The notes beneath the pieces are model-generated. The model saw nothing but the letters and a program-made list of their open reading frames with translations, was not told where the DNA came from and searched no databases. A stretch of 33,545 bases of DNA from Rhodoferax sp. (GTDB taxonomy: Bacteria > Pseudomonadota > Gammaproteobacteria > Burkholderiales > Burkholderiaceae_C). The stretch lies in assembly GCA_013791765.1 (NCBI GenBank), contig VMTC01000111.1:1-33545 (forward strand). The letters are read 5' to 3'. Positions 12,489-20,226 of this stretch are shown one piece after another. Each line of letters starts with the position of its first letter. Position 1 is the first letter of the stretch. The translations under genes were made by a program, and so were the position numbers.

Positions 12489-13508
12489 TCAGGTCTGCTG
12501 GGCCATCCACTGCACGTAGCTCGACACCCCGGTCTGCACATCGGCGAAGGCGTGGTCGCAGCCGGTGGCCCGCAAGGCGCTCAGGTCGGCCTGGGCGTAG
12601 CTTTGGTAGTTGCCCCGCAGGGCGTCGGGAAACGGGATGTACTCAATCAAGCCTGCCTCGCTCATGGCATCCAGACTCAGCGCAGCTTCGTTGCGCAGGC
12701 CTCGCAGCGTGTTGACCACTGAACTGGCCACGTCATTGAAGGATTGCGCCCGGCCTGTGCCCAGGTTAAAAATTCCCGATACGCCGGGGTGATCAAAGAA
12801 CCACAGGTTCACCGCCACCACGTCGTCAATAAAAACGAAATCGCGCATCTGCGCGCCCGCGGCATAGGCGCCACAGTCAGCAAACAGCTTGACTCTGCCC
12901 TCATTGCGGAATTGGTGGAATTGGTGATAGGCGGCGCTGGCCATGCGGCCCTTGTGCTGCTCGTGCGGCCCGTAGACATTGAAGTAACGAAACCCCACCA
13001 CCTGACCGGTCTTTCCCACCACTGAACGCCGAAAATCGATGCCGCAGTCCCGGCGCATGCGCTGGTCGAACAGCAACTTGGAGTAGCCATAAACATTGAG
13101 AGGATGCTCAAAGGCAGGGTCTTCCCGGAACGTGTTCGAGTCGCCGTAGGTGGCGGCGCTGGACGCGTAGAGCAGGCGCGCTCCGCGCTTCTGGCAGGCA
13201 TGGAACAGGTCAAGCGAGGTCGTGTAGTTGTTGTCCATCATGTACTTGCCATTGCTCTCCATGGCGTCGCTGCAGGCGCCCTCATGAAAAACGGCCTCGA
13301 TCTGGCCATAGGCACCGCTGGCGAACAGCTCGTAGAACGCACTTGCATCGACGTAGTCACAAATCCTGAGGTGGGCCAGGTTGCGAAACTTGTCGCCTTG
13401 CGTCAGGTCATCGACGGCAAGGATGTCGTCAAGGCCGCGGGCGTTGAGCCCCTGAATGATGTTGCTGCCAATAAACCCGGCAGCACCAGTGACGACGATT
13501 CGGGTCAT
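12489..13508 (-). CDS. hldD: ADP-L-glycero-D-manno-heptose 6-epimerase
   Basis: 339 residues. The ATG at 13508 starts [14 protein letters not shown], matching family N-termini; the codon at 13526 adds six unlikely residues. It is a short-chain dehydrogenase-type fold: NADP-binding GAAGFIG at 8-14, the YASSAATYG stretch at 114-122, and the catalytic YxxxK as Tyr140/Lys144 ([11 protein letters not shown]). C-terminal substrate motifs include [17 protein letters not shown]. It makes ADP-L-glycero-D-manno-heptose for the LPS inner core. The ATG overlaps the TGA of the upstream 31-codon ORF (ATGA), implying translational coupling. That ORF appears to be what is left of the heptose kinase gene acting earlier in the same pathway. 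Confidence 0.97.
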
Positions 13509-13600
13509 ACAAAAAGTTCCCCACAAGAAACCATGGTGGTAGAAAATTCACCGAGCACCATTGCGTTGGCCGTTGCGAGCTTTTCGCGAGAAATATTCAT
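13505..13600 (-). pseudogene. Probable in-frame deletion remnant of hldE/rfaE1 (heptose-7-phosphate kinase)
   Basis: A 31-codon ORF fills the lapB-hldD gap. Its first part, [16 protein letters not shown], resembles the start of HldE/RfaE1 kinases (in related bacteria roughly VSREQLAAARVLVVGD). Its last part, [11 protein letters not shown], resembles the end of the kinase domain (E. coli HldE has GTSTVSPIEL). The ~300 central residues, including all PfkB-type substrate and ATP motifs, are missing. The frame is kept, and its TGA still overlaps the hldD ATG. A GGA lies just before the start, 17 bp after the lapB stop. Both matches are short and from memory, so the identity is inferred. It could instead be a small leader ORF coupled to hldD. 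Confidence 0.55.
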
Positions 13601-13617: not shown

Positions 13618-14775
13618 CTATAACTCTTCGACCCGGCGGGCCGGATAACTGTCCCAGGCTTGGCAGCCGGGACATTGCCAGAAATGTTGTGTGGCCTCAA
13701 AGCCGCAAGCGGCACAGCGGTAGCGAACCAATGGCTTGATGGCCTGGTTCAGCGCGCGCTGGACCAGAGGATGAAACTGTTCGTGTTCAAGCTTTTCGCC
13801 GGCAATCCATTTGGTCGCGGCGACCAGCGAAGGTTCACGCTGTAAATGCTGCACATACCAGTCACGTGCGGTGGCTGTGGGCCCGTTGTGGTCTGCCTCC
13901 AGCGCGACGATGGCATCGAGCACGTCGAGCGAAGGCGAATCGACGTAATGGCTTTTGAGCAAGGCCAGCGCTTCGGGTGCGCGCGCGCAAGCGATGGCGT
14001 ACTTGCTCAGTGGTGCGGCCATCAGGGGAACAGCCGCAGGCGAAGATTGCAACGATTTTTGAAGCAACACAAAGGCTTCTTCTGGGTGGCCCTGACGCGC
14101 CAGCAACTGCGCCAGATCAAGACGCGGCCGTGCTGCCTCTGGCGCTGTGCTCAGTGCCTGTTGCAGCAAAGATTGCGCTTGTTCGGTCTCCTGGGTGCTG
14201 ATGGATTCGATCGCCTGCTCACACAGGTAATGTGCCAGGCGGCCCTGGAAACTGCCCTGGTTGGCGTGTTCAAGCTTCTGGGCGATCTGGGCGGCATGCC
14301 ACCAGTCGCGGCTGCGTTCATAGTTGGCCAGCAGCGCCAGGCGTGCCTGCGCCTCAAACGGTGTTCCTTCGAGCTTGAGCAAAGCCTCTTCAGAGCGGTC
14401 GAGCAGGCCCGCCTTCAGATAGTCCAGCGCCAGCGCATGCTGGGCGCGCTGGCGATCAAGCAGGTTCAAATCACCGCGAGAGAGCAGGTGTTCATGGACC
14501 CGAACCGCACGTTCATATTCGCCCCGGCGCCGAAACAGGTTGCCCAGCGCAAAGTGCAATTCCGAGGTGTCAGGGTCGCTTTGGACCGCTTCAATAAAAG
14601 CGTCAATGGCCTGGTCCTGTTGCTCATTGAGCAAAAAATTCAAGCCCTTGAAGTAAGCCTTGGGGGCCTGACGGCTTTCGATGCGGAGTTGGCGCAGGTC
14701 CAGGCGCGAGGCGACCCAACCCAGCACAAAGGCCAGCGGCAGCCCCAGCAATATCCAGCTCAGGTCAAAGTCCAT
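13618..14775 (-). CDS. lapB: LPS assembly protein LapB (YciM), TPR protein with rubredoxin-type metal site
   Basis: 385 residues. An N-terminal membrane anchor (about 6-23, WILLGLPLAFVLGWVAS) is followed by a cytoplasmic tetratricopeptide superhelix (about 35-330; e.g. SELHFALGNLFRRRGEYERAV). A C-terminal rubredoxin-like domain carries Cys354, Cys357, Cys368 and Cys371. In enterics LapB works with FtsH to control LpxC turnover and so LPS amount. All four metal ligands and the anchor are present, so it should be functional. The start overlaps the lapA stop by 11 bp and lacks a ribosome site, pointing to coupling. The neighbours lapA and hldD fit an LPS role. Confidence 0.95.
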   Translation of the reverse strand: MDFDLSWILLGLPLAFVLGWVASRLDLRQLRIESRQAPKAYFKGLNFLLNEQQDQAIDAFIEAVQSDPDTSELHFALGNLFRRRGEYERAVRVHEHLLSRGDLNLLDRQRAQHALALDYLKAGLLDRSEEALLKLEGTPFEAQARLALLANYERSRDWWHAAQIAQKLEHANQGSFQGRLAHYLCEQAIESISTQETEQAQSLLQQALSTAPEAARPRLDLAQLLARQGHPEEAFVLLQKSLQSSPAAVPLMAAPLSKYAIACARAPEALALLKSHYVDSPSLDVLDAIVALEADHNGPTATARDWYVQHLQREPSLVAATKWIAGEKLEHEQFHPLVQRALNQAIKPLVRYRCAACGFEATQHFWQCPGCQAWDSYPARRVEEL

Positions 14776-17344: not shown

Positions 17345-19354
17345 TCAGATTGCTCTGAAAGGCTGTTTGCTCTGCCACCAATCCAACATCAGATCGACCG
17401 ATTCTTCAACCGTTAAATCCGAGTTATCAAGCAGCTGGGCATCTTGTGCTGGCCTAAGAGGTGCGACGCTGCGGGAGGTGTCCCGTGCATCGCGCGCTTC
17501 CAGGTCCGCGCGAAGAGCCAGGAGTGTAGCCGAAATACCCTTTGAAATCAATTGTTTATAACGCCGCTGTGCTCTTTTGTCGGCGCTGGCGGTCAAATAC
17601 ACCTTGAGGGCGGCGTCAGGGAAGATGACCGTGCCCATGTCGCGCCCGTCGGCAACCAGGCCAGGCAACTGGCGAAAACTGTGTTGCAGCTCGATCAAGG
17701 CCTGGCGTATCTGGGGCAGAACGGACACTTTGGAGGCATTCATGCCGGCCTCTTCGGTGCGAATGGCCTCGCTGACTTCAAGACCGTTCAGAAAGATTTG
17801 ATCCTGGCTGAACCGGATGGCCAGGCCTGGAATCAGGTTGGCGATGGCTGCTTCATTGGCGGGCTCCAGCGCCAGGCCGGCCTGCAGCGCAGCCAGCGCC
17901 GTGATCCGGTAGAGCGAGCCCGAATCGAGCAAATGGTAGCCCAGCATCTTGGCCACGGCGCCTGCCAGGGTGCCTTTGCCGGACGCGGTCGGGCCATCGA
18001 CACAAATCACGGGAATGGCGTTGGGCGCGGTCTGCGCGAGCGCAAACAGCGCTTCAAAAAAGTCGGGAAAAGTCTTGGCCACGCACTTCGGGTCAATGAT
18101 GCGCACCGGCAGGCCGGCCGGATTGAAGGCTGCGAGTGAAAAACACATCGCCATGCGGTGGTCGTCGTAGGTGCGGATGCTTGCGGCTTGCCAGTCAGCG
18201 GGCGTGGCCGGCGGCGTCACGCGAATGAAGTCCGCGCCCTCGTCGACGCTGGCGCCGAGCTTGCGCAACTCGCTCGCCATGGCCGCAATGCGGTCGGTTT
18301 CCTTGACGCGCCAGCTCGCAATGTTGCGCAGCGTGGTCGTGCCTTGCGCGTACAAGGCCATCACGGCGAGCGTCATGGCGGCGTCCGGGATGTGGTTGCA
18401 GTCCAGGTCGATGGCTCTGAGCGGCCAGCTACCGCATGACACTTGCAGCCAGTTCGGGCCGCTGTGCACCTCCGCGCCCATCATCTGCGCGGCTTCGATG
18501 AAGCGAATGTCACCCTGGATGGAGTCCACGCCAACTCCTTCAATCCTCAAGTCTTTCTGGCCTCTAGCCACCGTCGCTATTGCGCCAGCAGCTATGAAAT
18601 AGCTAGCAGATGAGGCGTCGGCCTCCACGTGCAAAGTGCCGGGCGACTGGAATCGGCTGCCCGCAGGAATGGTGAAGCGCTGCCAGCCATCGCGGACCAC
18701 CCGCACGTTGAAGCGCGCCAGCAAGTTGAGCGTGATTTCAATGTAGGGGCGCGAAATCAGCTCGCCCACTACCTCGATGACGATGTCCTGGGTTGCCGCC
18801 GCCAACGGCAGTGCCATCAGCAAGGCCGTGAGAAACTGGCTCGATACATTGCCGCGCACGCGAATTGGCGCGTCCAGCCTCAAACTCGGTTGGCCAATGT
18901 GCAGCGGCGGAAAACCCTCAGTGCCCAGGTAGTCAATGTGGCAGCCGATCTGGAGCAGGGCGTCGACCAGGTCGCCAATCGGGCGTTCGTGCATGCGCGG
19001 TACACCGCGCAGTTCAAAGTCGCCGCCCAGAATGGCCAGCGCGGCGGTGAGCGGACGAATCGCCGTGCCGGCATTGCCCATGAACAACTTGGCTTCTTTT
19101 CGAATGAGCTGGCCGCCCAGACCGTCAATCTCGACGCTGCTGCCCGATGGCCGAACGCCACAGCCCAGCGCGCGCAAGGCGCCGAGCATGACGCGGGTGT
19201 CGTCCGAGTCGAGCAGATCATGCAGAGTGGTCGTTCCCGCGCTCAGGGCCGCCAGCAGCAATACGCGGTTGGAGATGCTCTTGGAGCCGGGTAACACAAC
19301 CGTGCCGCTCACCCCGGTGAGCGGCGGAATATCCAGAAATGCGGTGGCAAACAT
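17345..19354 (-). CDS. aroA-cmk: Bifunctional EPSP synthase (AroA) / cytidylate kinase (Cmk) fusion
   Basis: 669 residues in one frame. The ATG at 19354 is chosen because it shares its A with the tyrA stop (TAATG); the upstream codon at 19381 lies inside tyrA. Residues 1-~435 are 3-phosphoshikimate 1-carboxyvinyltransferase: [10 protein letters not shown] at 21-30, [10 protein letters not shown] at 93-102, KETDRI at 351-356, DDHRMAM at 397-403. About 12 residues later the CMP kinase begins, with P-loop GPTASGKG at 454-461, DSGSLYR at 477-483 and [13 protein letters not shown] near 569-581. The first domain makes EPSP for chorismate; the second phosphorylates CMP/dCMP. Similar fusions are, to my memory, known in Comamonadaceae. 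Odd: residues ~252-266 are encoded by a dispersed repeat copy and include about five extra residues compared with E. coli AroA, outside the recognised catalytic motifs. Confidence 0.95.
18559..18603 (-). repeat. Dispersed palindromic repeat, copy C (inside the aroA coding region)
   Basis: CTAGCCA (18564-18570), 19 bp, then AGCTAT (18590-18595) on the plus strand: same spacing as the other copies. On the minus strand it is read in frame as [13 protein letters not shown], with two ATA codons and one AGA. It coincides with a roughly five-residue insertion relative to E. coli AroA. Confidence 0.6.
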
Positions 19355-20226
19355 TATTTTTGCTGTTGAGACATGCGCCAATGGGCGCGGGTCAAGCTGG
19401 CTTGTTCAATCAGGCCTTCAAGCGCGTCGCCATTGCCGCTTGAGATCATGAGTTCGAGGGCTTGCAGGTTGCGCTGGAAGATTTTGGTTTGTGCCAACAG
19501 TTCTTCCCGGTTGGAGATCATGATGTCGCGCCACACCTTCGCATCACTCGCAGCGATGCGCGTGAAGTCGCGAAAGCCGGGGCCGGCCAATGACAGGTAG
19601 TCTTTGCCTTGTGGCTGGCCCGAGATCGCGTTCATCAGGGCAAAGGAAATCAGATGCGGCAAATGGCTGACCGCAGCAAAGGCGGCATCATGCGACTCGG
19701 GTGACATCTGGACCACGCGGCAGCCCAACGCTGACCAGACGTCAACCGCTTTTTGCAGTTGGACGGTCAGGGTGCGCTCAATCGGGGTGAGGATCACCTG
19801 GCGACCGCTGTACAGATCCGCATCAGCGTGCTCCACGCCCGAGACCTCTTTGCCGGCAATCGGGTGGGCCGGTACAAACGAGCCGATTTGTTCGCGCAGG
19901 GCGCGCCGGCCCGCATCGATCACGTCGCGCTTGGTCGACCCCACGTCCATGATCAGCATCTGCGGCGTGACCAGGTGCTTGATCGATTTAAAGGTGGCCT
20001 CGCTGGCTGCCACCGGCACCGCGATCAGCACAATGTCGGCGCCTGACACCGCCAGTAAAGCCGATGGCGCCTCGACATCAATCACGCCCATCTTGTAGGC
20101 CAGTTCCGTGGTGGAGGGTGACTTGCTGTAGCCCACAACCCGCTTGACCAGTCCGGCCCGTTTGAGCGCCAGCGCAAAGGACCCGCCCATCAAACCGCAG
20201 CCAATCAAGCCTAGTTGTTCAAACAT
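19354..20226 (-). CDS. tyrA: Prephenate dehydrogenase
   Basis: 290 residues, monofunctional. The N-terminal Rossmann fold has GxGxxG as GCGLMG (9-14), and the central region contains [18 protein letters not shown], which carries the catalytic His. The C-terminal helical dimerisation domain includes [23 protein letters not shown]. It oxidises prephenate to 4-hydroxyphenylpyruvate for tyrosine. The ATG follows the pheA stop directly (TGA then ATG) and its TAA overlaps the aroA start, so three aromatic-pathway genes are tightly coupled. There is no ACT domain, so feedback by tyrosine is not obvious from sequence. It could accept arogenate instead (cyclohexadienyl dehydrogenase), which sequence alone does not settle. 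Confidence 0.95.

Follow-up and report, generated by a model that had tools for sequence, protein, structure and literature searches.

The window analyzed here is a stretch of 33,545 nucleotides from the genome of a Rhodoferax sp. (G000; 4.17 Mb in 136 contigs, 100% complete, 0.89% contamination). Between lapB and hldD, both confirmed by NCBIfam matches above their cut-offs, it carries a reading frame of only 31 codons at the position where relatives have rfaE1 (Table 1). Elsewhere in the window, one 678-residue open reading frame at 17345-19381 (-) would, from its translation, resemble aroA fused to a cytidylate kinase (cmk) domain.

Table 1. Features of the lapB-hldD interval, in window coordinates
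Feature	Position	Strand	Basis or remark
lapB, LPS assembly regulator, intact	13618..14775	(-)	NF008755, 495.5 bits against a cut-off of 430
ATA where the original rfaE1 start codon stood	13619..13621	(-)	Alignment with relatives
31-codon in-frame rfaE1 remnant (heptose-7-phosphate kinase)	13505..13600	(-)	Stop overlaps the hldD start
N-terminal rfaE1 remnant MNISREKLATANAMVLG	13549..13600	(-)	Gap-free codon-by-codon match to L064 and others
Leftover of the LVVGD/LVVGK direct repeat, at the deletion junction	13548..13561	(-)	
C-terminal rfaE1 remnant	13505..13547	(-)	5 departures from the consensus FGTATVSYEELF; 0 to 3 in 78 intact copies
GGGGA, possible hldD ribosome-binding site inside the remnant	13518..13522	(-)	Sequence; putative function
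hldD, ADP-glyceromanno-heptose 6-epimerase, full-length open frame of 339 codons	12489..13508	(-)	TIGR02197, 400.4 bits against 274.6

On sequence grounds, the 31-codon frame is a dead rfaE1 remnant in which the two ends of the gene have been joined in frame. The first-pass annotation had already proposed such a remnant coupled to hldD, and the comparison with relatives bears it out, as both ends of their intact RfaE1 align to the short frame without gaps (e.g., ..SISREKLSQASVLVVGD.. and ..VVGKFGTATVSYEELFV* in G032), and locus and reading frame agree as well. The peptide alone found no family in NCBIfam and did not reach the 345-bit cut-off of the RfaE1 model TIGR02198. Nevertheless, because both ends, the length, the frame, and the lapB-hldD position all agree, the resemblance is not due to chance. 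Between the VVG motif and the stop, 13 relatives have 296 codons, whereas the window has 18 (a 14th relative, L065, is without the N-terminal part). The large internal loss described earlier is therefore real, while its size, put at about 300 residues, is exactly 278 codons (834 bp). The reported ATGA overlap with hldD is also found, in the sequence GTATGA. At the other end, 11 of the 13 relatives with an N-terminus that were compared have an rfaE1 start codon overlapping the stop of lapB (..TATGAC..); the window has ATA at this position (..TTATAGGC..), and the ATG of the remnant is a later codon. Compared with RfaE1/HldA (TIGR02198), the remnant shares the position between lapB and hldD, both sequence ends, and the reading frame, but it lacks 278 of about 310 codons, the entire catalytic core among them, and its start codon has been lost. 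The codons that contain GGGGA in the remnant read GAGGAG in relatives.

The position of the junction points to how the deletion may have arisen. RfaE1 carries LVVGD shortly after its start and LVVGK shortly before its end, and the junction falls at these copies. Their spacing is 834 bp in all 76 intact loci measured, the exact length that was lost. The closest locus whose upstream region is complete is the sister locus L064; among the direct repeats listed for its gene, the one that connects these two sites comes first and is the longest (21 nt, 76%, spacing 834). This repeat was listed in L064 and in none of the other three loci examined for direct repeats, and an exact in-register run of at least 10 bases between the LVVG copies occurs in 12 of 76 loci; in other relatives, the repeat does not stand out. 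The middle 834 bp of rfaE1 was likely lost by slippage or recombination between the LVVG-encoding repeats, and since both copies encode the same motif, a deletion between them is in frame by nature. A protein that repeats one short motif near both ends thus offers a simple reason for a clean in-frame gene deletion.

The remnant has no counterpart among the relatives searched. An RfaE1 match is present at 78 of the 80 hldD loci in named genomes. A short frame replacing the kinase, which the first-pass annotation had considered might be conserved in relatives, was found at none of the 80, the two loci without a match being uninformative (L098, where the contig begins inside hldD) or rearranged (L097, where hldD has other neighbors). 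L097 was considered as a second case and dropped because its hldD sits in a different neighborhood and is silent on the lapB-hldD locus. The genome searches covered 60 genomes including G000, 35 of them from the same genus, and HldD was scored as present with a match of E below 1e-90 and the kinase with a match over its cut-off. Both were found in 50 of the 60 genomes, the kinase only in two (G042 and G051), an HldD fragment in G027, and neither in six (G009, G020, G035, G036, G044, and G050), several of which are incomplete. Within the genus, 31 of 35 genomes have rfaE1 above cut-off. A full HldD without a kinase above cut-off was found in G000 alone, and an epimerase without its kinase is therefore an unusual state among these 60 genomes.

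The same searches returned other incomplete sets of these genes. G009, a genome of the same genus that is 74% complete, is without rfaE1 above cut-off, a strong HldD match, rfaE2, and GT9; this may be a second, complete loss of the pathway or merely an incomplete genome. Three near-complete genomes of the same order (G036, G044, and G050) have neither rfaE1 above cut-off nor a strong HldD match, and there may have been several separate heptose losses within the order. G042 and G051, also of this order, show the reverse of G000, with kinase and rfaE2 present and weak HldD matches only.

The retained part of the kinase has drifted. A comparison with L064 and L065 shows amino-acid changes in 6 of the 13 codons that follow the junction and silent changes in 2; the six include the final codon, which is variable in relatives too. 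On the same lineage, amino-acid changes affect 14 of 338 hldD codons (Fisher p 2e-5 against 6 of 13), whereas the corresponding synonymous counts of 2/13 and 28/338 give p 0.31. We read the stub as an old, drifting remnant. The drift of its C-terminus, together with the lost start codon, argues for this age and against an assembly collapse. A very recent deletion, which had been among the first suggestions, is disfavored by the six changed codons among the 13 retained.

Another early suggestion, that a kinase is encoded elsewhere in the genome, is not supported. The best TIGR02198 match in G000 scores 44.5 bits against the cut-off of 345, and the three weak matches to this model, all at other places, score best against ribokinase- and KDG-kinase-type families; the weak PfkB-type matches fit other kinase families better. 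Furthermore, the draft genome of G000 has no match to rfaE2 (TIGR02199) or to the GT9 heptosyltransferases (PF01075). Each of these two families was found in 34 of the 35 same-genus genomes, with one to five matches per genome for PF01075, and G009 is the one genome of the genus without both. The search of G000 for rfaE1, rfaE2, gmhA, gmhB, and heptosyltransferases recovered only a GmhA-type isomerase (NF010546, 330 bits, cut-off 276) and GmhB (NF006506, 226 bits, cut-off 178). WaaA, the Kdo transferase, is also kept, with 69% identity to the WaaA of G032; its best family is KdtA at 463 bits, under that model's cut-off of 524. The gene waaA is essential. The gene content of the draft genome is that expected of heptose deficiency, with kinase, adenylyltransferase, and GT9 absent and WaaA present.

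At four of the sites where the missing genes would be expected, flanks are assembled in G000. In G032 the order is phosphomannomutase (PMM), waaC, and waaA. In G000, a 6-codon in-frame stub, TTG-AAG-CTG-TTG-ATC-TTT-TGA, lies directly after PMM and before waaA; it consists of the five opening codons of a waaC-like start, a sixth codon, and a stop that overlaps a TTG start of waaA. A full-length waaC precedes waaA in all 15 relatives examined, which were chosen among those with PF01075; in 12 of them the waaC stop overlaps the start of waaA, and in the other 3 it lies 10 bases ahead. The starts and ends of waaC were compared in these 15 relatives, none of which was close enough to name an ancestral repeat at the junction. 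At the waaF site, the zinc-finger gene beside ilvE is present and waaF is missing; the counterpart of the gene that flanks waaF on its opposite side in G032 is on that same contig, at a distance of about 29 kb. The rfaE2 site has its HD-GYP neighbor but no rfaE2. No scar or recognizable stub was seen at the waaF and rfaE2 sites of G000. Beside the place of the missing waaF (L219:7300-7440) there are two copies of a short palindrome-like repeat (GGGACAGACC..ACGCGAAGCGAA..CAGCTCTGTCCCCAAC), which presumably resembles a dispersed REP-type element. The sequence ends left around the rfaE1 and waaC deletions would be those that let hldD and waaA still be translated, and translational coupling may have shaped which deletion survived. 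An altered LPS core, as the first-pass annotation had envisaged, is supported by the absence of rfaE2 and of any GT9 heptosyltransferase and by the waaC stub.

In contrast to the kinase, the epimerase gene is full length, and the substitutions on its branch indicate that it is still constrained, under a weakened purifying selection. HldD aligns to PDB 4ej0 over residues 4-337, and its ASSA and NVYGYSK segments are identical to those of 4ej0 and of relatives; we take the Ser of ASSA and the YxxxK to be the catalytic residues. By three-point arithmetic, the G000 branch of hldD since the split from L065 has a dN of about 0.037 and a dS of about 0.22 (ratio 0.16), compared with 0.019 and 0.18 (ratio 0.10) on the L065 branch. 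Parsimony over 338 codons assigns 14 amino-acid-changing codons to G000, 3 to L065, and 11 to L064, with 28, 26, and 57 silent codons, respectively. If hldD had been neutral since the death of the kinase, the neutral period could cover only about 14% of the G000 branch, on the assumption of three changing per silent change in neutral codons. The remnant would then be expected to carry 0.46 changed codons, and 6 are seen (P 8e-6); without the triple change GGC to TCT, 5 changed codons give P 1e-4. As this drift is far above the expectation for a neutral hldD, hldD outlived the kinase under selection. At conserved positions, HldD departs at 9 of 192 in G000 and at 1 of 192 in the sister L064, although some distant relatives reach 8 such departures too, while LapB departs at 1 of 190 in both. 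A firm claim that hldD alone has accelerated was dropped, since only these conserved-site departures speak for it. The outgroup-assigned amino-acid changes speak against it (20 vs 9 for hldD, p 0.06; 13 vs 7 for lapB, p 0.26), as do the tree branches, whose G000:L064 ratios are similar for the two proteins (0.105:0.050 for HldD and 0.085:0.045 for LapB).

The explanation that we hold with good confidence is that the short frame is what remains of rfaE1, that LPS core synthesis in this lineage has lost its ADP-heptose branch, and that hldD survives in a weakened state. The cell would now make Kdo-lipid A with a core free of heptose, where Kdo may carry a different sugar instead, and the outer membrane is probably built without heptose. 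G000 thereby seems to be a heptose loss caught partway, with two in-frame stubs, missing transferases, and a leftover epimerase. A dead pathway has to be weighed against the persistence of the GmhA-type isomerase and GmhB and the continuing constraint on hldD. The same observations would be explained if the pathway still worked, with the kinase, adenylyltransferase, and heptosyltransferases replaced by unrecognized families or by an LPS island that was left unassembled or unbinned. Since G000 is in 136 contigs, such an island could be missing from the assembly. However, no fewer than four gene types (rfaE1, rfaE2, waaC, and all GT9) are absent at the same time with flanks assembled at four of the sites, the completeness is 100 and the contamination 0.89, and all PfkB-type matches are weak and score best against other kinases, which together make a still-working pathway unlikely. 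A collapse of the middle of an intact rfaE1 between its repeats during assembly, to which the short repeats at the junction would lend themselves, is extremely improbable, given that the retained C-terminus departs at 5 of 12 residues where the 78 intact copies depart at 0 to 3, that the original start codon is gone, and that waaC, waaF, and rfaE2 are missing at other places.

Two further readings concern what the surviving genes might do. The short frame could be a conserved leader or spacer peptide, for instance one that carries ribosomes into hldD, as its open frame, its stop overlapping the hldD start, and the GGGGA ahead of hldD would allow; its absence from every other one of the 80 loci and its drifted sequence make this quite improbable. 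A more serious, though still doubtful, possibility is that HldD serves a second function, either by acting on a different nucleotide sugar or in a non-catalytic role, and is kept by selection for a function outside ADP-heptose synthesis. The kinase would then have died first, with the stub drifting like neutral DNA while the epimerase changed at about one-sixth of the synonymous rate. The excess of stub drift over that allowed by a neutral hldD, the full-length open frame with its YGYSK motif, and the standing of G000 as the sole genome of 60 with a full HldD and no kinase above cut-off are in its favor. Conversely, the clock is set by 13 codons only, the departures at 9 of 192 conserved positions look like decay, and no second job is apparent in the titles and abstract openings of the heptose-gene literature searched. 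If HldD does have such a role, the stub would be a built-in clock that exposes it. Under the favored loss of the ADP-heptose branch, the cell should have stopped making the known substrate of HldD, and the gene is a survivor.

Mutants of E. coli that have lost inner-core heptose are deep-rough and sick; there are nonetheless whole lineages that live without heptose. Laboratory deletions of hldE, rfaD, and waaC in E. coli are antibiotic-sensitive (PMC9454879), and a Shigella mutant has lost the epimerase, the reverse of the G000 case (PMC9600226). The deep-rough laboratory mutants (hldE, rfaD, or waaC; PMC9454879 and PMC9600226) have lost the same genes as here, but in G000 the loss is natural, involves several genes together, and took the kinase while the epimerase gene was kept. 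Heptose-free LPS cores have been reported for Moraxellaceae, Rhizobiaceae, and Colwellia (PMC4515632). The outcome expected for G000 is the same as for these naturally heptose-deficient cores, namely, Kdo-lipid A with another sugar replacing heptose; in contrast to them, G000 is placed here from genes alone, its scars are visible, and nearly all of its genus keeps the pathway. The titles and abstract openings of the literature searched contain no description of an rfaE1 stub, an orphan hldD, or a Rhodoferax without heptose.

Heptose-free cores are thus already known in other families, and G000 is a new variant caught partway. The locus opens a test of the order in which a conserved envelope pathway is dismantled, of what replaces heptose on Kdo, and of whether HldD does anything else.
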